A stretch of 64,000 bases of DNA, from NCBI GenBank assembly GCA_026168455.1, contig CM047428.1, forward strand, positions 35,205,255 to 35,269,254, in the 5' to 3' direction. Both the position numbers and the translations under genes were made by a program. Positions 4,106-63,591 of the stretch are shown here, in pieces. Source of the DNA: Theocolax elegans. Taxonomy: Eukaryota > Arthropoda > Insecta > Hymenoptera > Cerocephalidae. The notes beneath the pieces were generated by a model. The model was given only the letters and a program-made list of their open reading frames with translations, was not told the origin of the DNA and did not search any database. How positions within the stretch are numbered: position 1 is the first letter of the stretch; each line of letters begins with the position of its first letter.

Positions 4106-4224
4106 TGGATCAGGGAGCCGGAGGAAGCTGGTCGTGAGCATACGGCCAGACTAAATCTTAACCCTGGTGCGGCGCCCGTAGATGCGAACGTCCGTAAACC
4201 AAACCTACCGTAACGTAACCGCTT

Positions 4225-4566
4225 CCCGACCGTATCCTCGTGAGCACACGTGGGTTATCCCGACCGTATGTTCGTGAGCACACGTAGATTATCCCAACCG
4301 TATCTTCGTGAGCACATGTAGATTATCCCGACCATATTCTCGTGAGCATACGTGGATTATCTCGACCGTATCTTCGTAAACACACGTAGATTATCCCGAC
4401 CGTATCTTCGTGAGCACACGTAGATTATCCCGACCATATCATCGTGAGCACACGTGGATTATCCCGACCGTATCTACGTGAACACACGTAAATTATCCCG
4501 ACCGTATCCTCGCGAGCACACGTGGATTATCCCAAACCGTATTTCCGTGTGAACACACACGATAAC
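4225..4566 (+). repeat. 34-bp tandem repeat array in 5' LTR
   Basis: There are nine full 34-bp units plus one diverged terminal unit. Each has the pattern CCCGACCGTATCNTCGTGAG followed by CACACGTGGATTAT. Each unit holds a small inverted repeat, CGTG-AGCA-CACG, and several contain the E-box CACGTG. Units differ from one another by one to four bases. The second LTR carries its own version with different unit variants. Confidence 0.9.
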
Positions 4567-7991: not shown

Positions 7992-8510
7992 TCCTCGTGA
8001 GCACACGTGGATTATCCCGACCGTATCTTCGTGAACACACGCAGATTATCCCGACCGTATCCTCGTGAGCACATGTGGATTATCCCGACCGTATCATCGT
8101 GAGCACACATAGATTATCCCGACCGTATCCTCGTGAGCACACGTGGTTTATCCCGACCGTATCTTCGTGAGCACACATAGATTATCCCGACCGTATTCTC
8201 GTGAGTACACGTGGTTTATCCCGACCGTATTTTCATGAGCACACGTAGATTATCCGGACCGTATCCTCGCGAGCACACGTGGATTATCCCGAACCGTATT
8301 TCCGTGTGAATACACACGATAACCGTTAGTTGCGTCCGTTTAGGAAACTATTTATAAGGTAGCATTGTAAAGTTTGTAAGTCGCGTAGTACTAAGTATTG
8401 CTTATTTATTTGATTCTAGATTAACTAAGAACGCATCCCAGTCAGCAGGGCAACGGCGATTCCATTTATTTTCTATTGTACACAACTTAGCTTTACAAAT
8501 ATATATATAG

Positions 8511-10257: not shown

Positions 10258-11757
10258 ATGGCGCCGTCAATATTGAAAAAGTTAATACCTTTACAACGTG
10301 AACGTATGCTAGAAATAAATTAAATTCGAACCCGTTTAACTGAAAGGCCCCGCGACACACTAACTGGGAGCATTATTCAAGCTAGAATCGATGCGATCGA
10401 CCGAATATGGCTCGAAACGCGAAAGAGTCACGGGGAAATTATTAACGACGCGAAGAATGATTCGTACGTAACCGATCGGGCATTTGACAATATGCAAGTT
10501 TTATACGAAGGAGCGCGAGACGAATTTTTAGGTATGCTTGTCGAATTTCAAGCACAACTTAATGATCGCGACAGCATAGTTAGAAATCGAAACGACGATA
10601 GTACAGACTCCCGACCGCGGCCCGCGAAACTTCCAAAGCTCGATCTTCCCACCTTTTCAGGTCGGTTTGAGGATTGGGATAATTTTTATGATTTGTTTAC
10701 GTCATTAGTACACGATACGCCGAACATTTCCGATGCAACAAAGCTACAATATCTTAAATCGTGCCTTACTGATTCTGCCGCCGATTTAATAAAAAAAGTC
10801 ACAATAACTAATGCTAACTATATGTCGACATGGCAAACATTGAAAAATCGGTTTTATAAACCTCGTATCACAGTTAATAATCATTTACACGCTCTTATAA
10901 ATTTGCCGCAGTTAAAGCGAGGTACTGCTCGGGAATTGAGATCGTTCACTGACGAAGCCCAATTGATTAAACGCGCGCTCGAAAACTTGAAAATGCCCGT
11001 ACAACATTGTAATTTCATGCTCGTTTTCTTAATCGCTAACAAACTTGATCCTGAATCTCGCATGTTATGGGAGTCTGAATTAAGTGCTATAGATCAAAAA
11101 ATAATTGACGAAAATCAAACTGACAATATTAATTATGATCCACTCTCACGCTTCCCTAAATTCACCGATCTTGCTAAATTCCTTGAGCAACGAGCTCGGG
11201 CGCTCAATGTCATTGCCGCGGAACCTAGAAAAGAACCCAGGACTTTACCGGAGGCAAGAACATCGACAAAGGTGAAAAGAGTTTTTCATACTCTACCTAG
11301 GCGTCATTTAGAATCCTGGGGCGTTAAAAAATGTACACTTTGCCGAGCGTCGCATTCAGTTTACAATTGTCTTGAATTTATAAAGTTGTCGATTACGGAA
11401 CGGCAAAAAACAGTTCGTCGTTTAAAATTATGTTTTAATTGTCTCGGTAATCACCAAATTAACGGATGTTCTTCGAATGGCAGATGTTTAAAGTGCCGCG
11501 GTAAACACCACACTCTTTTACATCAACCACAACAAACAGCAACCGCTGCTAACGTCACGGGAAATGGATCGAATTATAAGAAAAATAACGGTAATTCGGC
11601 AGAATCAATCACTGTACTAACAGCGAATATCGCTTGTCCGAAGTATTGTACGGTACTTGCGACCGCGCAAATAATTCTTATTAATTCTCAGGGTGTACGG
11701 ACCCGCGCACGAGCACTGCTCGATCAGGGTTCCCTACCGGGACTACTCGCGGTATAA
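10258..11757 (+). pseudogene. BEL/Pao gag and start of protease
   Basis: The start ATG at 10258 is in frame with the main frame, but a TAA at 10321-10323 stops translation after 21 codons. The frame reopens and holds the BEL-type gag domain (DUF1759-like; LPKLDLPTFSGRFEDWDNF near 10630-10685). Three C-x2-C-x3-H-type zinc knuckles follow (CTLCRASHSVYNC, CFNCLGNHQINGC, CLKCRGKHH), about 11332-11510. It then reaches the protease active site ALLDQGS (normally DSGS) near 11710. There the homology breaks: a deletion with a frame change gives a short aberrant tail ending at 11757. Gag would form the particle shell and bind element RNA. Confidence 0.8.
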
Positions 11758-12607
11758 CTCAGCTAACAATCCAGTAACACAGCCTGACTTTCAATTGACA
11801 CTTGAAGCATTTATTTTGCCAAAACTAACCTCAAGGCTGCCTTTTCAACCGGTCACGCAAATCGATATAAATTCTTTCAACGAGCTCGCGCTCGCTGATC
11901 CACATTTTGACGCTCCTGATAGGATAGATCTTATTTTAGGTGCTAACGCGTACGGTCAATTGATACGATCTGGATTAAAGCGATTTCGTTCGAACAATTT
12001 AGTAGCTCAAAATACCGCCCTCGGTTGGATAATTTCAGGTACGGTTAATGGCGACGCGTCACGGCGGGCGGCATCAGATCTCAATACTCCAATTAATGCG
12101 TTACACTGTATTTCCACCGACGAATTGCAAAAACAATTACAGACGTTTTGGGAACTAGAGGAATCGGTTGGAAGTATAAGAAAATCCCATCCAGACGAGG
12201 AAAAATGCGAAAATCAATTTCGTGAAACACATAAGCGAGAACCCAGCGGTCGATATACGGTACGATTGCCTTTTAAATCAGAACCACCGAAAGTTGCTTA
12301 CGAAACCCGACGTCTCTCACTTCGTTCACTTGCGAGTATGCACCGCCGGTTTTCTAAAGACACTCGATTAGCTACTGAATATCGTGAATTTATGTCTACG
12401 TATGAACAATTAGGTCATATGTCGCGAGTTCCTACGTCGGACTTAAACAATCCTCAAGCATGGTATTTACCGCATCATGCGGTAATACAAAACTCAATGA
12501 ATCTTTGGTAACTTCGAGTAGTATTCGATGCATCACGACGCACGCGATCCCAACACTCTCTCAACCAATTTTTACTTTCCGGACCGGCTTTACAAAAGGA
12601 TCTTTCG
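11758..12607 (+). pseudogene. BEL/Pao protease remainder and pol N-terminus
   Basis: This frame (open from about 11693, with true homology from about 11760) carries the rest of the BEL protease (DUF1758-like; DLILGANAYGQLI, ALGWIISGTVNG). The linker to reverse transcriptase follows, up to WYLPHHAVIQNS. A TAA at 12509-12511 interrupts an otherwise continuous frame: RVVFDASRRTRS follows it in the same frame and matches the start of the Pao reverse transcriptase. A single base change explains the stop. The middle of the protease is missing upstream. Confidence 0.75.
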
Positions 12608-14911
12608 TTGATTCTATTAAACTGGCGTAGATATCGGTACGTCTTTACAGCGGATATTGTAAAAATGTTTCGCCAAATATTAGTACATCCTTACGATCGT
12701 GATTACCAGCGCGTGTTATGGGCGCCGCGCCCCGAGGACCCCCCGATCGAATTTCGCCTTGCAACCGTAACGTACGAGACTGCATGCGCTCCTTATCTAG
12801 CAATCCGCACCATTACGCAATTAGCTGAGGACGAAAATGAACGTTTTCCGTTAGGTTCCCGTTGTTCAATTGAGAATACTTACGTGGACGACGTCTTGTG
12901 CGGTGCAGATGAGTTAACCGAAACTATTCAGAAACGCGATGAACTAATTAATTTACTAGCTTCCGGACGTATTGAGTTGGACAAATGGGCCGCGAATCAT
13001 CCCTCCTTACTACCAAAAAATTCAAAGACAATTAATGAAATAAAAGAAATCAGCATCGATGACTCTGTTAAAACGTTAGGGGTGCGGTGGAATCCAAATA
13101 GCGATGAATTTAGTTTCCAAGTAGTTGATATTGAGGCTGCTTGTAAAGCATTAACTAAACGCGCAATACTATCCAGCATAGCCCGTCTTTTTGATCCTCT
13201 AGGCTGGCTCTCCTCAATTACGGTTGTCGCAAAAATCCTCATGCAGGACTTGTGGATACTAAAGTGCGATTGGGATACGCAACTGCCTGATAACATTTGC
13301 GCACGATGGCAAGAATATTGCTTTTCATTAAAAAACCTATCACGTTTATCAATCGGGCGTTGGTTAGGTTCGTTGAACAATCGGTCGTATCAAATACATG
13401 GATTTTCTGATGCTTCATCACGAGCATATGCAGCGGCTGTCTACCTCCGATGCGGAGATGACACGGGTAAAGTTCGAATTTCGTTAATCGCGGCTAAAAC
13501 CCGAGTAGCACCGGTAAAAACTGTTAGCATACCGAACTTGGAACTTTGCGGTGCTGATTTATTAGTCAAGCTAATTTTAAATTTGAGAAAATTAAAATTC
13601 GTTAAAAATCTTGCCGTGTACTCTTGGACTGATAGTCAAATTGTATTAACTTGGTTATCTAAACATCCGTGTCATTGGAAAACATTTGTTGCGAATCGCG
13701 TATCCTTCATACAAACTGAGTTACCGACAGCGATATGGAGTCATGTACCTACTAAAGATAACCCTGCGGATTTTGGTACGCGTGGCATGAGCGTATGTGA
13801 CCTTATCAAATGCGATCTTTGGTGGCACGGACCCACCTGGCTGACTCGCCCCGCGCAGGAATGGCCTCAACCCCCAATCATAACACAAAATTTTCACGTT
13901 CAGGTCGAACAACCAGAGTTAGAAATGTTGAATCGCTATTCAACACTAAGCCGACTTATTCGCGTTGTCGCATTTTGCCGTCGGCCATTAAGAAACCAAC
14001 GTCTACGTAAATTAAATCAGTCTGATTATACCGCGTTTTTAACTTTAGAAGAATTATCCGAAGCACGAGATATGGTTATTCGATTAGCACAGTCAAGCGC
14101 ATTTAAAAATGAACTAAAATTGCTACAAGGCGGACAAATGTTGAGCAAGAACAATCCCTTAAATAAACTAAATCCTATTATTAACGGAGGAATAATACGC
14201 GTCGGCGGACGTTTAGTTAATTCGCACTTAACTCAAACACAAAAACACCCACCTATCCTACCCTACCGGTCACATCTAAGCCGTCTCTTCGTAAAGTATG
14301 CTCACTTATCGGTACTTCATGGCGGTCCCACGCTAACTTTAAGTTTTCTACAGCAGAATGTATGGGTGTTAGGTCGCAATCGATTGATTAAAACTGTTAT
14401 AAGAAATTGTACACAATGCCAACGCGTCAAACCCCACTTTGCTCATCAAATGATGGGAAATCTCCCGGCAACTCGAGTTACTGCAGCTCGCCCATTCTCA
14501 TCAGCTGGCCTAGACTACGCCGGCCCACTCGCTATTCGTGCTTCTAAAGGTCGAGGACATCGGTCCTATAAAGGATATATAGCATTATTCATTTGCTTTA
14601 CTACAAGAGCCATACATCTCGAACTCGTCAGCGACCTGACCACCAACAGCTTTATATCAGCATACCGTCGGTTTGTTGGACGACGTGGTATTTGCCAGCG
14701 GTTGTATAGCGACAACGCCACTACATTCCATGCAGCGGATAAGGAATTGCAGAGCATGTTTGAAGCTGCATCCTCCTTTTATAAGGAAACAGCTGCTAAA
14801 CTCGCTAGCGATGGTACTGAATGGAGGTTTATACCACCAAACGCGCCTCATTATGGTGGACTATGGGAAGCAGGAGTCAAATCCACCAAACATCACCTTT
14901 CAAAAGTTTAA
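12608..14911 (+). CDS. BEL/Pao reverse transcriptase, RNase H and integrase (C-truncated)
   Basis: This long intact frame continues the pol above after its stop. The reverse transcriptase shows FTADIVKMFRQI and the catalytic YVDD at 12881-12892. A Pao-type RNase H follows (GFSDASSRAYAA, SWTDSQIVLTWL). Integrase has its zinc-binding HLSVLHGG and CTQC pairs near 14300-14420. All three acidic catalytic residues are visible, in GLDYAGP, YSDNATTF and LWEAGVKS. Homology stops just after the glutamate motif and the frame ends in AT-rich DNA, so the integrase C-terminal domain is lost. The low density of lesions here suggests a fairly recent insertion followed by truncation. Confidence 0.85.
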   Translation: MILLNWRRYRYVFTADIVKMFRQILVHPYDRDYQRVLWAPRPEDPPIEFRLATVTYETACAPYLAIRTITQLAEDENERFPLGSRCSIENTYVDDVLCGADELTETIQKRDELINLLASGRIELDKWAANHPSLLPKNSKTINEIKEISIDDSVKTLGVRWNPNSDEFSFQVVDIEAACKALTKRAILSSIARLFDPLGWLSSITVVAKILMQDLWILKCDWDTQLPDNICARWQEYCFSLKNLSRLSIGRWLGSLNNRSYQIHGFSDASSRAYAAAVYLRCGDDTGKVRISLIAAKTRVAPVKTVSIPNLELCGADLLVKLILNLRKLKFVKNLAVYSWTDSQIVLTWLSKHPCHWKTFVANRVSFIQTELPTAIWSHVPTKDNPADFGTRGMSVCDLIKCDLWWHGPTWLTRPAQEWPQPPIITQNFHVQVEQPELEMLNRYSTLSRLIRVVAFCRRPLRNQRLRKLNQSDYTAFLTLEELSEARDMVIRLAQSSAFKNELKLLQGGQMLSKNNPLNKLNPIINGGIIRVGGRLVNSHLTQTQKHPPILPYRSHLSRLFVKYAHLSVLHGGPTLTLSFLQQNVWVLGRNRLIKTVIRNCTQCQRVKPHFAHQMMGNLPATRVTAARPFSSAGLDYAGPLAIRASKGRGHRSYKGYIALFICFTTRAIHLELVSDLTTNSFISAYRRFVGRRGICQRLYSDNATTFHAADKELQSMFEAASSFYKETAAKLASDGTEWRFIPPNAPHYGGLWEAGVKSTKHHLSKV

Positions 14912-15860: not shown

Positions 15861-16068
15861 AATGACAAATTATTTTAGGTGTTCCATTGAATAGTTCAGT
15901 CAAATTAGACCTTTTTTATGAAAAAATTATATTGTCGACAAAAAAATACATTTATATAGTATGAAATAACACGAATTAGCCCAACTATTTTCCAATGAAA
16001 ATTTATGTACGCTTCCCATTAAAAAAAATCAAATAGTTCCAAAAAACCGATTATTGCTTATTTTATGA

Positions 16069-16292
16069 TGTGACAAGGTGGATTTAATCCACTTGTCATA
16101 TAAGATGCCAACATTACCGACACCGCGAGAAGGCGCCGTATCGGTAGCATATAAGAACAATAAGCAGGCGCTACGACCAGTGCGGGCGTAGCGCAGTGGT
16201 TAGCGTGAACGCCTTCGGATCCGAAGGGGCTCGGGTTCAAGACCCGACGCCCGCTTCATTTTTTATTCAGCACTTAAAAGTCTCATGCCACA
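16069..16292 (+). repeat. TRIM 5' LTR
   Basis: It starts TGTGACAAGG and ends GCCACA. Its first 30 bases fold into a hairpin (TGACAAG/TTGTCA outer stem, GTGGAT/ATCCAC inner stem). The tRNA-like unit occupies 16182-16254 and is followed by a T6 run. Two short minus-strand frames across the LTRs are incidental. Confidence 0.92.
16182..16264 (+). ncRNA. tRNA-like Pol III unit inside TRIM 5' LTR
   Basis: Seventy-three bases fold partly as a tRNA. The acceptor strands GCGGGCG and CGCCCGC pair perfectly. The D-arm (GCGC-loop-GCGT) contains A-box-like TAGCGCAGTGGTTAGCG. The T-arm is TCGGG-TTCAAGA-CCCGA with B-box GGTTCAAGACC. The loop-like CTTCGGA resembles the anticodon loop of tRNA-Arg(TCG). The 5' anticodon stem does not pair properly, so it is tRNA-derived and probably not a working tRNA. 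A TTTTTT Pol III terminator follows at 16259-16264. Confidence 0.75.
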
Positions 16293-16293
16293 A

Positions 16294-16307
16294 TGGCGCC
16301 CAACGTG
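16294..16307 (+). other. TRIM primer-binding site
   Basis: TGGCGCCCAACGTG begins one base after the LTR. The same 14-base motif follows the LTR at 62829-63577. This suggests the same primer tRNA, and perhaps that the larger element family mobilises the TRIM. Confidence 0.85.
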
Positions 16308-16490
16308 AAAAACCCACCTGCAGAAAACCTGTGAATATTGTAAATAGTCCCTAATCCCTTCCTAAGCAGCCTTCCCCAGCAGCAGCGCTCCTAGAATAAT
16401 TAGAGGGAATTGTTCTAGTGAGCAAAGAGCAAAAGCAATGCCTCTTCCCCAGCCTATAATACGTCTCGATGTCTTACAGACACTCGACGG

Positions 16491-16505
16491 TTTGGTGGGG
16501 GGGAT
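16491..16505 (+). other. TRIM polypurine tract
   Basis: TTTGGTGGGGGGGAT lies directly before the second LTR. Its G-run matches the expected plus-strand primer position. Confidence 0.75.
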
Positions 16506-16729
16506 TGTGACAAGGTGGATTTAATCCACTTGTCATATAAGATGCCAGCATTACCGACACCGCGAGGCGGCGCCCTATCGGTAGCATATAAGAACAATAA
16601 GCAGGCGCTACGACCAGTGCGGGCGTAGCGTAGTGGTTAGCGTGAACGCCTTCGGAACCGAAGGGGCTCGGGTTCAAGACCCGACGCCCGCTTCATTTTT
16701 TATTCAGCGCTTAAAAGTCTCATGCCACA
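16506..16729 (+). repeat. TRIM 3' LTR
   Basis: This is the same length as the 5' LTR, with about seven substitutions. One of them changes the tRNA-like loop region from GGATCC to GGAACC, and one lies in the A-box (GCGC to GCGT). Confidence 0.92.
16619..16701 (+). ncRNA. tRNA-like Pol III unit inside TRIM 3' LTR
   Basis: This is the second copy of the 73-base tRNA-like sequence (16619-16691). Its acceptor and T-arm pairing are intact, and a T6 run follows at 16696-16701. The A-box base change restores no extra pairing. Confidence 0.72.
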
Positions 16730-16733
16730 ATGA

Positions 16734-52304: not shown

Positions 52305-52339
52305 ATAGCGGCCGCTACCAGAGATCATGATGATAGGGC

Positions 52340-53026
52340 TGGAGGAGAAGACCCTCCGAGTGAAAAAGAAACTCGTTGGTGGGTCCAAGTGGGCATTGCC
52401 GGCTACCGCGTACGCGCCTTGTTCGATACGGGAGCATCGCGCACGGTAATGGGTTCGATTGGTCTACAATTGGCCACGGCCTGCGGCTGTCCACTCATCC
52501 CGAGCAACGGAAGGAAAGTGAAAGTGCCAGGAAACCAGACGGTGGCGATCGCTGGTTACGTAGACCTGCCTTTCGAGGTTGCCGGGATAAAGCGAGATAT
52601 TCGCGTAGCCGTACTTCCGGACGATCTAATCGACTGTTACGTCGGAACGGACTTCATCCGTGGTTTTGGCGCAGTTTTGGATCCAAACGAGAATAAACTT
52701 TGGATCAAAGCGGCCAACAAGTCCGTAGATCTGTAAATAGCGAGCATATCGCGAATCGATGCGTTCGAGGTAGCATCGATCGGACTAGCAGACTTATTGC
52801 CAGAGGAGCAAGAAAGACTGCATACACTGGCTGACCGATACCTGGGTACAACGGGGAGGCCGTTGGGATGTACATCTCTGATTGAGCACGCGATCGACGT
52901 GGGTGCGACGCGGCCAATCAAACAGAAATATTATCCCGTCTCTAAGCGAATAGAGGAAGAGATGCACGCCCAGGTTAAGGAGATGCTCGACGCGGGTCAA
53001 CCAGTGGATGGTCGAGCCCCGTAGTA
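52340..53026 (+). pseudogene. Gypsy protease and linker
   Basis: The aspartic protease motif LFDTGASRTVMG (about 52420-52450) and the domain end YVGTDFIRGFGAVLD are clear. A TAA at 52734-52736 breaks the frame, which then continues unchanged (RIDAFEVASIGLADLLPEEQ) into the reverse transcriptase N-terminal region KQKYYPVSKRIEEEMHAQV. A frameshift near 52998-53005 moves it to the frame of the next entry. Confidence 0.8.
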
Positions 53027-54871
53027 ATGGTCCGTAAACCTAACGGGAAGTATCGGTTCTGTATTGACTATCGGAAGGTCAATGCAGTGTCGAAAACCGA
53101 TGCTTACCCGCTGCCTAACATGGACGGCATACTACGGAAGCTCAAGAACGCGAGGAACATCAGCACGCTAGACTTGAGTAGCGCGTACCACCAGATACCG
53201 CTAAGACCGGAGTCAGCGGCTATAACCGCGTTCACAGTACCTGGGCTAGGCTTATTCCAATTTAAAAGGATGCCTTATGGCCTATCCCCGGCGGGAGCCA
53301 CGTTCCAGAGGTTAGTGGACAAAATCATAGGGCCTGAGCTCGAGCCCTATGCATTTTCGTACCTCGATGATATAATCATCGCCACAGAGATCTTCGAGGA
53401 ACACGAAAAGTGGCTAAAGTATGTCCTGAAGAGAATCAACGAGGCTAGTCTCACAGTGAATCGGGATAAGAGTGTATTTGGACGTACTGAGGTAAAATAT
53501 CTCGGAGTATTGGTTAATCGCGATGGAATCAGGCCAGACCCCGAGAAAATCGAGCTGATCATCAATTATCCGGCGCCCAAGAATCTAAAACAACTTAGAA
53601 GATTCCTTGGTATGGGTTCGTGGTACCGGAAATTCTTACGAGACTTTGCTACCTTGGCCGAGCCGCTGACAAGGCTTACCAAGAAGGACCGTAAGTTTGA
53701 ATGGCTCGAGGAGCAGCAACAGGCATTCGATCAGATTAAGGCGCTGATCGCAACTGCTCCCGTCCTAGCGAGGCCAGAGTTCAATGTGCAGTTTGTCATA
53801 CAAACGGACGCGAGCGACACTGGCATTGGCGCAGTACTTCTCCAGGTGATTAATGGGGAAGAGAGAGTACTAGAGTTCGCCAGTAGGACGTTAAACCAGG
53901 CCGAACGCAATTATAGCGTTACGGAACGAGAGTGCCTGGCGGTTATATGGGAGATTGGTAAATATAGACCTTATATAGAAGGCTATCACTTTCGCGTTAT
54001 AACCGACCATAGTAGCTTACGTTGGCTGCGTAGCTTACACAGTCCAACGGGTAGATTGGCGCGATGGGCACTAGAGTTGCAGGGACACAGCTTTGATGTG
54101 GAGCATCGAAAAGGCGCCCTGAACTACGTACCCGACGCGCTATCGCGGATGAGCGAGGAGGAGGCCCTCGCCATCGACGCAATATCTTGGGTAGAGGAGT
54201 CCCAAGACGAGTGGTTTCAGAATTGGCTGAAACGAGTAAAATCTAGTCCAAGGGATTTTCCTCGTTGGAAGTGTGTCGGAGGACGACTATACTTTCACAA
54301 GCCAAACGAGTTAATCGACGAAACATTTGGAGACGAGGACGCGTGGAAGTTAGTTATTCCGAAGGAACACCGAAAAGCGGTCCTCGAGGAAAGCCACGAC
54401 TCTCCTACGTCTGGCCATGCTGGACGTGAGAAGACGTTTGCCAGTCTGGCTAAGTATTACTACTGGCCAGGTTATTACGCCGACGTGAAGGACTACGTGC
54501 GCCGCTGTCTCGTCTGTCAACAATGCAAGGTGGATCAGCGATTACCTGCAGGACTGATGGAAAAACGCACGGTCGGACCCTTTGTACGGAGCAAGGGCGG
54601 ATACGAATACATCCTCGTATTCTTGGATTTATTCACCCGGTGGGCGGAGTGTATACCAATTCGCAAAGTCAACGCGAAAACCATTCTCAAGGAGTTTAAA
54701 GAGAGGATAGTTTTGCGATATGGTACTCCCGAGGTATTCCTTTCGGATAACGGTACTGAATTTAAAAATAAGGCCGTCGACGAATACCTACAAGAGGTGG
54801 GGATACATCATACCACCACTCCGCCCTATTTCCCCAAGCGAATCCGGTTGAACGCGTCAACCGAACGCTGA
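53027..54871 (+). CDS. Gypsy reverse transcriptase, RNase H and integrase core (one internal deletion)
   Basis: A 614-codon frame. Its first methionine is not the real start; pol continues from upstream. The reverse transcriptase shows FCIDYRKVNAVSKTDAYPL, TLDLSSAYHQIPL and catalytic YLDD at 53360-53371. RNase H shows QTDASDTGIGAVLLQ, VTERECLAVIWE and HRKGALNYVPDALSR. The integrase zinc region has H-H and CLVCQQC. In the catalytic core, the segment that should hold the first aspartate is missing between EKRTVGP and FVRSKGG, while the second is present in FLSDNGTEF. The frame ends at a single-base deletion near 54835. Confidence 0.88.
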   Translation: MVRKPNGKYRFCIDYRKVNAVSKTDAYPLPNMDGILRKLKNARNISTLDLSSAYHQIPLRPESAAITAFTVPGLGLFQFKRMPYGLSPAGATFQRLVDKIIGPELEPYAFSYLDDIIIATEIFEEHEKWLKYVLKRINEASLTVNRDKSVFGRTEVKYLGVLVNRDGIRPDPEKIELIINYPAPKNLKQLRRFLGMGSWYRKFLRDFATLAEPLTRLTKKDRKFEWLEEQQQAFDQIKALIATAPVLARPEFNVQFVIQTDASDTGIGAVLLQVINGEERVLEFASRTLNQAERNYSVTERECLAVIWEIGKYRPYIEGYHFRVITDHSSLRWLRSLHSPTGRLARWALELQGHSFDVEHRKGALNYVPDALSRMSEEEALAIDAISWVEESQDEWFQNWLKRVKSSPRDFPRWKCVGGRLYFHKPNELIDETFGDEDAWKLVIPKEHRKAVLEESHDSPTSGHAGREKTFASLAKYYYWPGYYADVKDYVRRCLVCQQCKVDQRLPAGLMEKRTVGPFVRSKGGYEYILVFLDLFTRWAECIPIRKVNAKTILKEFKERIVLRYGTPEVFLSDNGTEFKNKAVDEYLQEVGIHHTTTPPYFPKRIRLNASTER

Positions 54872-55762
54872 AAACCAGGATTGTGGCTTTCATCGAAGAA
54901 AACCACAATACCTGGGACGAGAAGTTGCCGGAGCTTGTATTCTCGCTAAACAACACCGTCCACGAGTCGACGGGTACAACTCCGGCAATGCTGAATTACG
55001 GACGAGAGCCTATGCCTCCTGGTACCATCAAGAGGAACCAAGAACAGGCTGGCATAGAAAAGGAGCAGCACCATAAGATAGAATCGTGGCAAGAGCGACT
55101 TCGAAAGCTCAGGGAAGTACATGAGTCTGCAGCTGCTCGCTCAGATCAACAGCATGAGCGGCAAGCGAGCTATTATAATGCTAAAAGGAGGGACACACCT
55201 TTCGCCGTAGGAGATCTGGTGTGGAAGAAGAACAGTCCTGTCCTCAGCAGCTCAGGGTATTTCAGCTAAGCTGGCTCCGAAGGCGACAGGTCCGTATATC
55301 ATAATAGGCCAACCAGGATTCAATACATACACGTTGTTGGATAAAGAAGGTAAAGTGACCGACCTGGCACACGCCGAACGCCTCAAACACTGCGTTTCAC
55401 CGAACCTCGACGTAGACGAAAGAGAACATCCGCCGAGGGACATCGTGGGAGAAGGGGCGACGCGCGACCCGCCTCATGCGAGCGTACAGTCACCAAATTG
55501 CATGCGGACTCCTGCGCGAGTCATAGCGGGTGACACCAGCGTGCAAGAACAGGCTCCTGCGAGAGTCAAAACGCCGGATGTACGAAAACGCGGCCGTCCG
55601 CGAAAATCCGCGAAAGCCGTCACGAGACCCCACGGTAGAAAGATAGTGTATCGCTGTGTGGTAACGAACGACGCAGAACACGTAGTCGGGGGAACCGGAC
55701 CATCGGTAATCGTTAGAAAAACGCGCGCGCAATCGAAGCGAGGAAAGGATAGCGATAATTAA
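54835..55762 (+). pseudogene. Gypsy integrase C-terminal part with AT-hook tail
   Basis: In the shifted frame the integrase continues (NPVERVNRTLK with the catalytic glutamate, TWDEKLPELVFSLNN, MLNYGREPMPPG) to 55269. There, a further shift near 55245-55260 interrupts the C-terminal domain (KLAPKATGPYIIIGQPGFN). The tail is basic and proline-rich. It carries an AT-hook-like KRGRPRKSAKA at about 55590 and ends KRGKDSDN at 55762. Confidence 0.8.
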
Positions 55763-57862: not shown

Positions 57863-58678
57863 CTAGCCCACTACCGCTGCCATCGCAACTCCTCTCTCCT
57901 CTTCTCTTTTGATGAGACCCAGCCTGTCCACTACGGACATACAGAGGGTCACTACCGCGTTCCATCCCTCCTGGGAGTGAAGCAGGCACGCCCCGATGCC
58001 CTCAGGGGTGAGGGGACCGCTCCAAGTGACTTGAAACTGGTCCCGTTCCTCCCTGAAACGAGGACACCATAGGAGGACGTGTTCCACGTCTTCGTCCGCC
58101 CCTGGACAAGCCGGGCACTCTGCGCTGCCGTAGACCCCTATACGAAATAGGTAGCTACGGAAGCATCCGTGCCCGGTCAACACCTGGGTAAGCTGGAAAC
58201 TGACAAAGCCGTGTTTCCTGCTCGCCCACTCCCGGATCCGCGGGATGATGCGGTAGGTCCAGCGGCCGTCCCTGGCTGAGTCCCATCTCCGCTGCCACTC
58301 CTCTACGGTCCGCAATGACCATCGGTTGTGACAGCGGTTCTCTTCTAGGCGTCGCCCACCCTCACGGTGTCTTTCAGCTCTCTCGGCTGCCAGGAGGTCG
58401 AAGGGGGCGGTCCCCGCGACCACCGAGAGCGCAATGTCAGATACGGTTCGGTACGCCCGGGCCACCCTTAGCGCGGCTATCCTGCAGGCTCTCTTGCACG
58501 GAGCACCAAAGCTCTTGTGCCTGTTCAGGGCATCAGCCCAGATAGGAGCTCCGTATAAAATTACGGAGTTCACCACCGAGGCAAGGAGAGACCTTCGCGG
58601 TTGCTGGGGTCCCCCGATGTTGGGCATGATGCCCGCCAGCGCACGGGCCATCTTTGCCGCCTTTGAGTCTGCGTTCAC
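57863..58678 (-). pseudogene. R1-type ORF2 C-terminal part
   Basis: It is separated from the reverse transcriptase frame by a single-base shift near 58680. It begins NADSKAAKMARALAGIMPN, part of the thumb and connection region. It ends with the zinc motif CPACPGADEDVEHVLLWC (C-x2-C-x7-H-x4-C), common to R1 and related elements, and a short tail to 57863. Confidence 0.85.
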
Positions 58679-59910
58679 GAGATGGTGTTTGAAGACAGCC
58701 GCGCGTCTAGTGTGACCCCTAAATACTTCAACGTTTTCACCGACCGTATCCGTTCTTTACCTACCGTGAAGGTGGCGGTCTTCTCCTTTTTTGTGCGAGA
58801 GATGAGCACCGCCTCCGTTTTTTCCGCCGCCAGACTAAGTCCGTGGTCTCTCAACCAAGTGGCGACCACTTCTATAGAGACGTCTCCGAGATATTCGATC
58901 TCTTCGACACCCTTTGCGACCACCACTAGCGTCACGTCGTCCGCAAAAGCCACCATCGAGACACCCTCCGGAAGTTGTTGCCTAACCAGGCCGTCATAGA
59001 CAGCGTTCCAGAGTAGGGGCCCAATGACCGAACCCTGTGGCACGCCTCCCGTGATGTTGTGGGAGTGCACACCGTCGTCGGTGTCGTAGAGCAGAGTACG
59101 GTCAGTCAGGAAACTCGAGGTAACCTCCCTGAGATAGAGTGGCACTTGGAAGTGCTGCAGGGACAGCATGATGTCGTCCCATCTGGCAGAGTTGAAGGCA
59201 TTCCGGATGTCCAAGGTGATGATGGCACACATCCGCCTTGCACTCCGACCAGCATTGATGGCGTTTGTGGCTATACCAACAACTCTGCCTACAGCGTCCA
59301 TGGTCGATCGACCCTTTCGGAAGCCGAACTGGTTGTCGGAGAGGTCTCCGGCCCGACCGATGGCCGCTGCGAGCCTGGCGCAGATCACCCGCTCCAGAAG
59401 CTTCCCAACTATATCCAGTAGACAGAGCGGGCGGTAAGATGATGGCTCCTCCGGGGGTTTGTTTCCCTTCGGTAGGAGTACCAGCCTCTGCGTCTTCCAC
59501 TGGGCCGGGAAGCAACCTTCTCTCAGGCATGCGTTGAATGCGTCCAGGAACAAGCCCGGAGCACTCATCGCCGCTGTCTTGACGGTCAGGCCAGGTATTC
59601 CGTCCGGCCCAGAGGCTTTACGTACGGAAATACCTTTAGCGGCCCTCCTCAGATCGGCTTCACTAATGTCTGGCGACTCGGCTGCACCAATGGTGGTCAT
59701 CAGGCCCGTCTCTGTTGCCCTTTTCCGATGTTCTGGAAACAGGTGGCGGACTACACCGTCCAGAAAAACTGGGTCGGTGGGTGCAACAGCGCCCCCGGGG
59801 TTGATGTTATTCATAACCGTTTTATACGGTCTGCCCCAGGGGTCGTAGTCCACATCCTCACATAGCTCCCGCCAACACCTTCTCTTGGCAGCCTTGATGG
59901 CCCTTTGAGA
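58675..59910 (-). pseudogene. R1-type reverse transcriptase
   Basis: Reverse transcriptase blocks appear in order: RKASGPDGIPGLTVK, YRPLCLLDIVGKLLERVI, QFGFRKGRSTMDAV, TLDIRNAFNSARWD, GGVPQGSVIGPLLWN, and catalytic FADD at 58936-58947 (minus strand). It would copy the element RNA onto nicked chromosomal DNA. The open frame extends to 60000, but protein similarity joins the endonuclease frame by a shift near 59905. Confidence 0.88.
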
Positions 59911-60854
59911 TCCCTCCGCTTTTGTTCGTATTCTGCGGAACGATCTTGGAACCGCGGTGTTCCCCTCGCTCTTTGGTGCAACCTTCTGGCACGCAGGCAC
60001 TCACATCTCTTTTCTGCGATGTCCTCACTCCACCAGATTATTGGTGGGCGGCCGCGAGGGTTGAACTTCACGGCCATAGAGGCATCGCAAGCCGCTGTTA
60101 AGGCATTCGTGAGGCCTCGTGCTTTTTCTTCGGCGGTTCCCTCTACTTTAGCCCCCTCAAGGGAGCAGAGGAACGTCTCACGATCAAACGTGGCTGGTGC
60201 CCATCTCTCTCTTGCTCCTCTTCCTGCTCTCTTTGTCCTCCCGCTGGTCAGCTGGAGCTGGTACACGAGTGCTTGGTGGTCACTACCCGTGTAACGATCG
60301 CTAACTTTCCAGCCGAGTCTCCCTCCCCCCATCAATCTAGGATCGACGAAAGTGAGGTCGACTATGGACGACCTGCCGGCTTTGGTGAAAGTCGGGGTTG
60401 TCCCTGTGTTAGCGATCTCCAGCCCCAGTAGAGCGAACGCCTCGAGAAGTGCGCGACCACGCACGTTGGTCTTGGCGCTGCCCCAGTCCGTCGCCCAAGC
60501 ATTAAAGTTCCCACCGATTGCGACCGGTAGCCGTGAGGACCGAGCACAGGTGACGACTGCATCCAGAGATCTCGCAAAGTCCTCAGTGGAATCGCTGGGC
60601 GGGAAGTAGCAGCTGTACATGCGTACCCCCGCCACCTCCACCCAGGTGAAGCTGGAAAGGGGGACGACCATCTTTCTGGAGATGTGTATATTTACACAGT
60701 TCGACATCTCGAGATCCCGGAACTCCTCGCTGATGATCGCTACGTCCGCTCTCTCCTCTCTGACCAGCTGGGACAGCAGGTCCTGGGCCACAGCGCAGTG
60801 GTTGAGGTTTATTTGGAGCACCTTAATCATTTTTGATATGTGCTCCTTCCTCAT
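59905..60854 (-). pseudogene. R1-type apurinic-like endonuclease (ORF2 N-terminus)
   Basis: It starts MRKEHISKMIKVLQINLNHC. Its ATG overlaps the end of ORF1: the ORF1 stop lies within ATGATTAAG. The endonuclease motifs are LQINLNHC, IISEEF, and GSDHQAL near the end. The usual GDFNA motif reads GGNFNAW, with Asn in place of the catalytic Asp (codon at 60507-60509). This domain normally nicks the target site. Confidence 0.85.
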
Positions 60855-61830
60855 GCGAGGTCTTTGCTTTGGCCTCGCAGTCCACTGCTTTGTGGCCCTC
60901 TTGGCCGCACCGATAGCATTGCGCTGACCGGTCGACTGCGCTCTTGCACTCCCTCGCGATGTGTCCCGATTCGTGGCATCGGTAGCAGCGCGAGGATACC
61001 TCTCGCAGTCGAACTCTGCAATTGACCCATCCGATCCGGAGCTTTTTGTCTTGCAGCAGTTTTTTGGCAGCTACTGCCGGAAGCTGGATGGTCGCAGCTA
61101 GAGTGCCACTGTAGGACCCCCTGCTTTTAATATTATCCGGGGATACCACGTTTGGCCCGATCTTTGCTACAATAGCTGCGGCCACCTCCGTTGCTGTCGT
61201 GGACTCGTCCATGTCCCTGATGGTGATAGACACTTTGTGAGTTAGCAGCTGGACCTCTGCTGACCCACTCAGGGTGGACGAGACCACTGTCCTTAGCTCC
61301 GCCGTTTCCGTTCCGGGTCGCCCCAGTTCGAGGAGGAGCTCCTCAGCCCTGGTGCGCCTGACACGCGTGACCCGTTCTCCTAGTGTCTTTAATACCGGTG
61401 CAGCCTTGACCTTCCGGAGAATGTCAGCGTAGGAAGAGCCCCCGCTAGATGTCTTGATCTTGATGGCATCTGGGCGTGGGGGTCTTACTCCGGCCTTAGG
61501 CTCTGCCGTGCCTTTGGCCGGTTTGCTGGCACGTTTCTGCTGTTCTTGCTGCTTCGGCTGGCTGTCCTTCATCTTCTTCTTCTTTTTGCCCTTCTTCACT
61601 ACCGTGGCCCAGTCAGGGACCTTTGACTGGTTCCCACCGGTCTCAGGAACGGATGGCGAAGCATCTGCTGGCCCACCTTTATTAGTGGGCTGCTTTGACC
61701 ACTTCTTCCTTTTCTCCGGGGGTTACTGAGGTGGTGAGGGCTTTTCCCTTTCCACCGGCCTCCTTTGTCGCTCTTCAGCGCGGAAGATGGGCGACGTTTG
61801 GCACGTACCATCCTTACGCGCATCCGCCAT
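60823..61830 (-). pseudogene. R1-type ORF1 (gag-like nucleic-acid-binding protein)
   Basis: The ATG at 61830 opens MADARKDGTCQTSPIFRAEE; a TAA at 61725-61723 interrupts it, and the same frame continues to 60823. A lysine-rich stretch (KKGKKKKKMKD) precedes the central domain. Two zinc knuckles follow: CYRCHESGHIAREC and CYRCGQEGHKAVDC (C-x2-C-x4-H-x4-C). ORF1 proteins bind element RNA and direct its localisation. Confidence 0.85.
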
Positions 61831-62828: not shown

Positions 62829-63577
62829 TGTAACGAATCAATGTAATATTTGATTATATTACATTGCTCGTTACATTCTCTCTCTCTGTCTAGCCTATGT
62901 ACTAATCATTATACAGCTGTTACAGGTCGGCGTTCGACGATTTTCGGCGATTATCGCGGACCTTCGTTAAGGGAAAAGAGTAGGGAGAGAGAGAGAGAAT
63001 CGAGACTTGCGAGTACACGAATAATTAGACTTAGCTCGGCCGTGATTGATTTCGCCTCGTAGAGATTTTGAGAGTTGGTTGATTCTGGTGTTGTTTAAAG
63101 ACGAATTTTAGTGTGTTGTTCGAACTTTGCATTTTGTTAGCGTTTACGCAACCCAGTGTTCCCAGCAGAGAGGAGAGAAAAGCGACAACGCAGATTTCAT
63201 CCACTGGAGTCGATCTTCTATTGCGAACTACACACTGTAAGTGTCAGTTCTGTAGTCTCTCTCTCTCTTTCTCTCTTTATTTATTTAACGTATTTCCCGA
63301 CCTGCGTACTCGCGTGCAACGGCACGTGTTTATATAGCGAAGTAATTTAAGAATATATTTCTTTATTTATTTTATTCAAATTGTGATTCTTTGCTTATTT
63401 CAAATTACTCACCTTTCCTTTCGCGTTTCGCTAGATAAAAGAATACCGCCGCCTCCGCATATACGTTTGGTTTTGTATTATTACTGAGCGGCCGATCGCA
63501 TAGAGACTATTATTTTAACGGTAGTTAATTGTTATTATCTTTTTGTATTTATATTTAAAAATAGCAAAACCGTTACA
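62829..63577 (+). repeat. 5' LTR of an LTR retrotransposon
   Basis: It starts TGTAACGA and ends ACCGTTACA, immediately before a primer-binding site. The first 47 bases form a long hairpin (TGTAACGA...CAATGTAATAT against ATATTACATTG...TCGTTACA). CT-rich tracts lie at 62876-62887 and 63256-63277. Short frames inside it are incidental. Confidence 0.85.
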
Positions 63578-63591
63578 TGGCGCCCAACGTG
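63578..63591 (+). other. Primer-binding site
   Basis: TGGCGCCCAACGTG is identical over 14 bases to that of the TRIM at 16294-16307. Confidence 0.85.

Follow-up and report, generated by a model that had tools for sequence, protein, structure and literature searches.

Within a stretch of 64,000 nucleotides of the genome of the wasp Theocolax elegans (hereafter the window), we have found a complete miniature LTR element (TRIM) that carries a tRNA-like unit with an A box, a B box and a T6 run in each of its LTRs and that belongs to a repeated family with members recombined with Gypsy elements. The interpretation that we favor, and to which we assign a probability of roughly three in four, is that this is a TRIM that would be replicated by the LTR route, primed by tRNA-Lys, in Gypsy particles, from an RNA that would be started by Pol III in the 5′ LTR, with the tRNA-like unit serving as an internal promoter and not as a tRNA.

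Anatomy of the Element

The TRIM occupies positions 16069–16729 of the window (661 bp, plus strand, as are all of its features given below) and is flanked on the left and on the right by the target-site duplication ATGA (16065–16068 and 16730–16733). Its 5′ LTR (16069–16292), which begins with TG and ends with CA, and its 3′ LTR (16506–16729) are each 224 bp long and are identical at 217 of 224 positions (96.9%). An inverted repeat, capable of forming a hairpin, lies at the outer edge of U3 (16071–16098). The LTRs enclose an internal region of 213 bp (16293–16505), which was inspected for ORFs of 120 or more amino acids and contains none. One base past the 5′ LTR is a primer-binding site (PBS), TGGCGCCCAACGTG (16294–16307), that matches 14 nucleotides of the 3′ end of a tRNA, which we take to be tRNA-Lys-CTT, and two bases ahead of the 3′ LTR is the polypurine tract GGTGGGGGGG (16494–16503). 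A first-pass annotation of this DNA had described a complete TRIM with paired LTRs, ATGA duplication, PBS and purine tract, and that description proved correct.

The tRNA-like unit lies at 16182–16255 in the 5′ LTR and at 16619–16692 in the 3′ LTR. The Rfam tRNA model (RF00005) recognized the two copies with scores of 40.8 and 39.8 bits, respectively (E values of 3.5e-5 and 6.4e-5 over the 64-kb window), as compared with a cut-off of 29 bits; the covariance score, which the annotation had named as a check, is thus above background. Rfam found a tRNA, and no 5S rRNA, in these LTRs. Pattern matching located the A box TAGCGCAGTGG at 16189–16199 and the B box GGTTCAAGACC at 16234–16244 of the 5′ LTR, and a predicted Pol III terminator of six T residues (T6) follows the unit at 16259–16264, with its counterpart in the 3′ LTR at 16696–16701. 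As had been claimed, both boxes and T6 are present in each LTR, all of them perfect, and both the acceptor stem and the T stem are fully paired in the 5′ LTR copy. Within the window, an A box and a B box spaced 20–60 bases apart occur solely in the two TRIM LTRs, and no such pair arose in any of 200 mononucleotide shuffles.

A Family of Copies in the Genome

A search of the 658-Mb genome with the 224-bp LTR listed at least 41 matches (40 of 1,148 first-look candidates were scored), and a search with the internal region listed at least 40 (40 of 122 candidates scored); these counts are lower bounds, and the sampling favors copies that resemble the query. Loci were fetched around the LTR matches, which fell on contigs of 66–111 Mb, seven of which were seen. 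The best LTR matches resolved into 37 element clusters, of which 16 had the structure LTR–internal–LTR (the second LTR being truncated in two), 20 consisted of an LTR only, and one had an extra LTR. The genome search for solo and full copies that the annotation had proposed therefore revealed a repeat family. A flanking duplication of at least 4 bp accompanied 14 of the 16 LTR–internal–LTR clusters and 13 of the 20 LTR-only clusters; three of these duplications sit in ATAT runs and match over 6 bp. Six of the seven LTR-only clusters that had no duplication are located in five composite loci, in which the LTR continues into the PBS and then into foreign or inverted sequence; the seventh is at locus L013.

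Three loci had unusual arrangements. At L016 two solo LTRs lie 3.2 kb apart with identical 6-base flanks and an AACA duplication, probably reflecting a local duplication of host DNA. At L054 and L071 an LTR–internal–LTR copy is followed directly by another partial LTR, a hint of tandem or nested TRIM copies.

A Second Family Shares the tRNA-Like Core

The tRNA-like unit is part of a 95-bp conserved core (16170–16264), composed of a 12-nucleotide leader, the unit itself and T6, that we propose to be the R region and that recurs in a second family of this genome. The second family was recognized from a 258-bp solo LTR with GAAT on both flanks (L058/L086). Its LTR and that of the window TRIM have 16170–16264 in common, with identity at 87 of 94 aligned bases, a score equaled by none of 300 shuffles. 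The two U3 regions had no similarity above that of shuffles (228 of 300 scored as well), and 109 of 300 shuffles scored as well as the comparison of the U5 regions. A fragment at L058 (LTR positions 102–196) was considered as a candidate for a Pol III transcript copied by a LINE, which was discarded when extension of the sequence exposed the solo LTR. A further match to the tRNA-like core alone (92.8%, LTR positions 102–197), at L074:7390–7485, is perhaps another second-family LTR.

When the second-family core was used as the query, at least 40 matches were listed (40 of 1,041 first-look candidates scored), some of them in pairs 424–429 bases apart. In one such pair, L087, there are two LTRs, of which the 3′ one is shortened, together with the PBS TGGCGCCCAAC and a purine tract; a BLAST comparison of L087 with the first family gave just two matches, the core (93.8%, 96 columns) and 18 bases at the PBS. 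The shared core extends from 19 bases upstream of the A box to the last T of T6. A tRNA-type Pol III transcription unit is expected to have this very span, from upstream of the A box to the terminator.

Nature of the tRNA-Like Unit

We aligned 81 near-end-to-end LTR rows from loci L001–L076, with duplicates removed and both window LTRs included (11 partial LTR matches were left out, and 10 of the 40 internal-region matches had no locus of their own). If the tRNA-like part were a chance insertion of a SINE or a tRNA in the window copy alone, other copies would lack it, the outcome that the annotation had named as refuting its claim. That outcome did not occur among these rows, which by their sampling favor copies like the query: the unit was gap-free in 76 rows and at least 90% present in 79, and the other two, the diverged copies at L052 and L062, had deletions of 26 and 32 bases in the 5′ half of the unit, A box included, and kept the 3′ half. 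The strict A-box pattern was retained in 74 rows and the strict B-box pattern in 75, and 77 rows had a run of four or more T residues behind the unit. A tRNA-like unit is present in the second family too. The tRNA-like part is hence a constituent of the TRIM family, and although an origin from a SINE is plausible in the deep past (as proposed in PMC10886601), we give next to no credence to an insertion confined to the window copy. The mean pairwise difference per site was 0.0197 in the unit and 0.0326 and 0.0367 in two parts of U3, and the short stretch after the unit was less variable still (0.0139); within the family, then, the tRNA-like part is not alone in varying little.

Could the TRIM encode a working tRNA, Arg-TCG, and so spread tRNA genes? 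The Rfam score is over the threshold, and the pairs of the acceptor, D and T stems are largely intact across LTR copies. Set against this, the RF00005 alignment passes over the anticodon arm, ARAGORN (run with the bacterial code) called no tRNA for the units, and the isolated unit, whose predicted fold has four arms (z = −3.45), has an anticodon-arm hairpin with a loop of 4 bases instead of the 7 of an anticodon loop. Because of that 4-base loop the Arg(TCG)-like reading of the annotation is not supported, and we regard a working tRNA as very improbable. A scan of IMG/VR with part of the tRNA-like core gave no matches. Together with its 12-base leader the unit was no longer predicted to fold as a cloverleaf. 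Shuffled leaders, however, mostly had this effect as well: of 200, 69% for the first family and 85% for the second took the acceptor-stem probability below 0.1; we therefore dropped the idea that the leader specially blocks cloverleaf folding and conclude nothing from the loss of the cloverleaf in natural flanks.

A different possibility is that Pol II, starting from a promoter in U3, produces the genomic RNA and that the tRNA-like unit yields no more than a short Pol III RNA or is a relic. With a T6 run right behind the unit, most Pol III transcripts should terminate at about 95 nucleotides, as this proposal would have it, and U3 of the window TRIM holds two CATATAAG motifs. Yet it is the tRNA-like core that the two families have in common and not U3, and a pattern search of the window TRIM LTR found no TATA[AT]A, AATAAA or ATTAAA. 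We consider Pol II transcription from U3 unlikely and favor the tRNA-like unit as an internal Pol III promoter.

Recombination with Gypsy Elements

As judged from their sequences, recombinant copies indicate that the TRIM has been co-packaged with a Gypsy lineage. The hybrid at L077 (also L045) consists of a Gypsy LTR, then the TRIM interior and then a TRIM 3′ LTR, with a perfect 4-bp duplication, GCAC, on both flanks; it was the one Gypsy LTR/TRIM hybrid among 30 internal-region loci examined. This structure is the product expected if Gypsy plus-strand strong-stop DNA had annealed to the complement of the TRIM PBS, which would place both in one particle. Two chimeras are of another form. At L074 a TRIM LTR meets, tail to tail, a Gypsy LTR of 1.5 kb in inverted orientation; both flanks are ATAT, a duplication of little weight given how AT-rich the genome is. 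At L076 a TRIM LTR and 18 bases of PBS are joined to an inverted, truncated Gypsy element with gag-pol reading frames, and the flanks, ACCT and ACCA, agree at three of four positions. In addition, L036 has a TRIM LTR, the PBS and an inverted TRIM LTR between outer flanks of AGTT; L073 has a TRIM LTR joined to a truncated Gypsy LTR, with no outer duplication found there; and L075 is a composite with 15 PBS bases and without an established outer duplication. Among literature titles we found none on strong-stop recombinants of non-autonomous LTR elements, which is not proof that there are none.

The PBS itself bears on the origin of such copies. At L017, L036 and L040 the LTR is followed by an 18-base PBS, TGGCGCCCAACGTGGGGC, presumably the complement of the 3′ end of tRNA-Lys-CTT. 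The PBS was listed for 14 intact copies, namely L041 and 13 of the 16 full copies (the other three fell outside the pattern used); in each, 13–14 primer-matching bases are followed by A-rich sequence. Because the intact copies diverge at this point, the extra bases at L017, L036 and L040 are probably a copy of the tRNA primer. Since 18 primer bases are copied into plus-strand strong-stop DNA, the three loci look like inserted intermediates of reverse transcription.

Those Gypsy LTRs that could be resolved to their outer end (at L074, L076 and L077) start with TGTGACAA, one of them with TGTGACAAGGT, as the TRIM does. In two types of Gypsy LTR joined to TRIM copies the TGTGACAA start is followed by an inverted repeat, as at the U3 edge of the TRIM. 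The window also contains pieces that are 81–84% identical to the Gypsy copy of L076 (37170–39546, 41336–41661 and 20028–20339); they likely represent the mobilizing lineage in broken form.

Proposed Mode of Replication

The anatomy, the duplications and the hybrids give good support to replication by the LTR route, with a tRNA as primer and with the enzymes of Gypsy. In our model the TRIM would be reverse transcribed from a tRNA-Lys primer in particles of a Gypsy lineage having the TGTGACAA LTR start and an identical PBS. We infer, in addition, transcription by Pol III with the tRNA-like unit as R: in the 5′ LTR the polymerase would start some 12–19 bases ahead of the A box, and U3 would then correspond to 16069–16169, R to the leader, unit and T6 of the conserved core, and U5 to 16265–16292. 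Given T6 in both LTRs, most Pol III transcripts should end before the PBS; the model assumes that the first T6 would be read through in a minority of rounds and that transcription would stop at T6 of the 3′ LTR. The tRNA-like unit would be retained for its promoter.

Thirteen of the 16 full copies have exactly two T6 runs and no other run of four or more T residues, and three have a single T6. We entertained and rejected selection against such runs between the two terminators, since the same absence was seen in 52% of shuffles (P = 0.52), which is not beyond chance, and one TTTT lies between the terminators of the second family.

More tentatively, and at somewhat less than even odds, a broader picture may hold: the two families would share a Pol III cassette (as R), the PBS and the LTR edges, and little else; their RNA would be packaged together with Gypsy RNA made by Pol II; strong-stop DNA would jump between the two; and integrase would insert the resulting hybrids, including tail-to-tail molecules with two LTRs.

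Other Repeats in the Window

Downstream of a 749-bp LTR at 62829–63577, and reaching beyond the right end of the window, lie two more almost identical copies of it (100% and 99.9%). The LTR at 62829–63577 is followed by the PBS TGGCGCCCAACGTG at 63578 and a long gag-like frame, with no long pol frame in the next 10 kb; the cluster is young and rearranged. The window further contains a BEL/Pao-like element (10324–14911; Peptidase_A17, DUF1759 and integrase zinc domains), a probable non-LTR retrotransposon on the minus strand (57863–61722; RVT_1 and a CCHC-like first ORF), another Gypsy-like element at 52305–55762, whose long open frames encode RT, RNase H and integrase domains, and two tandem arrays of one 34-bp unit at 4224–4556 and 7992–8299, about 3.4 kb apart.

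Relationship to Known Elements

In 2024 Kojima gave the name Helenus to TRIMs whose LTRs contain a tRNA-like sequence, and also proposed the term TRIMp3 (PMC10886601). The first-pass annotation was right about the anatomy of a TRIM with a tRNA-like Pol III unit in each LTR; the novelty that it implied finds no support. The literature that we found on Helenus and TRIMp3 consists of that paper and a meeting report citing it. Helenus elements are 311–1263 bp long, have no coding capacity and have been described from fungi, one plant and animals, including chalcid and cynipid wasps; 40 families are reported from 14 wasp genomes, and the elements are common in chalcid wasps (PMC10886601). In the animal families duplications are of 4 bp, and dependence on Gypsy was argued from PBS similarity and duplication length; Helenus is known from sequence, and its Pol III transcription is presented without experimental validation (PMC10886601). 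The window TRIM agrees in its length and lack of an internal ORF, in the tRNA-like sequence, boxes A and B included, of both its LTRs, in the PBS and polypurine tract between them, in the duplications of its family and, on the genomic evidence of the hybrid and the chimeras at L074 and L076, in apparent mobilization by Gypsy. The likeness to the hymenopteran families extends to TRIM length, box-bearing LTRs, purine tract, 4-bp duplications and solo LTRs, and to a PBS matching a tRNA 3′ end, tRNA-Lys being among the wasp primers (PMC10886601). It differs in that Gypsy dependence is backed here by recombinant copies. The TRIM is a member of this known kind, probably in or near its known host range, and the family itself may already be listed among known Helenus. 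As to the host, 13 copies of CCCAATAA (TTATTGGG reversed) form an array near one end of a contig (C2, bases 652–762), with none in the other five contig ends fetched; because chalcid wasps are reported to have TTATTGGG as their telomere motif (PMC8977481), the array tentatively points to a chalcid wasp. For COX1, the genome yielded just three nuclear pieces, all broken.

Other elements resemble the TRIM in part. The plant TRIM Cassandra likewise has the Pol III promoter of a small-RNA gene within its LTRs, but that promoter derives from 5S rRNA. Its RNA starts and stops within the 5S sequences, those of the 5′ and the 3′ LTR, respectively (PMC10886601), a precedent for the start and stop that we propose. 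Ajax, a nemertean TRIM, also has a promoter of small-RNA origin in its LTRs but is 5S-derived and makes 5-bp duplications (PMC10886601). PbTRIM of the harvester ant is a hymenopteran TRIM with 4-bp duplications, whereas its PBS is complementary to tRNA-Leu and the available text of its report mentions no tRNA-like unit in the LTR (PMC3532108). The internal A/B-box promoter is shared with tRNA-derived SINEs (SINE2), which have no LTRs and are mobilized by LINEs; the LTRs, PBS, purine tract and 4-bp duplications of the window TRIM point to LTR replication, and we rejected its assignment to SINE2.

What is new here is the set of recombinant Gypsy/TRIM copies, which would show whose enzymes the TRIM borrows. 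The genome offers both a repeated family and an identifiable Gypsy lineage, and the hybrids would constitute a natural record of co-packaging and of primer use, while the conserved core predicts where R starts and ends. Together, the family, the hybrids and the core make it possible to test directly whether LTR retrotransposition can be fed by Pol III transcripts.
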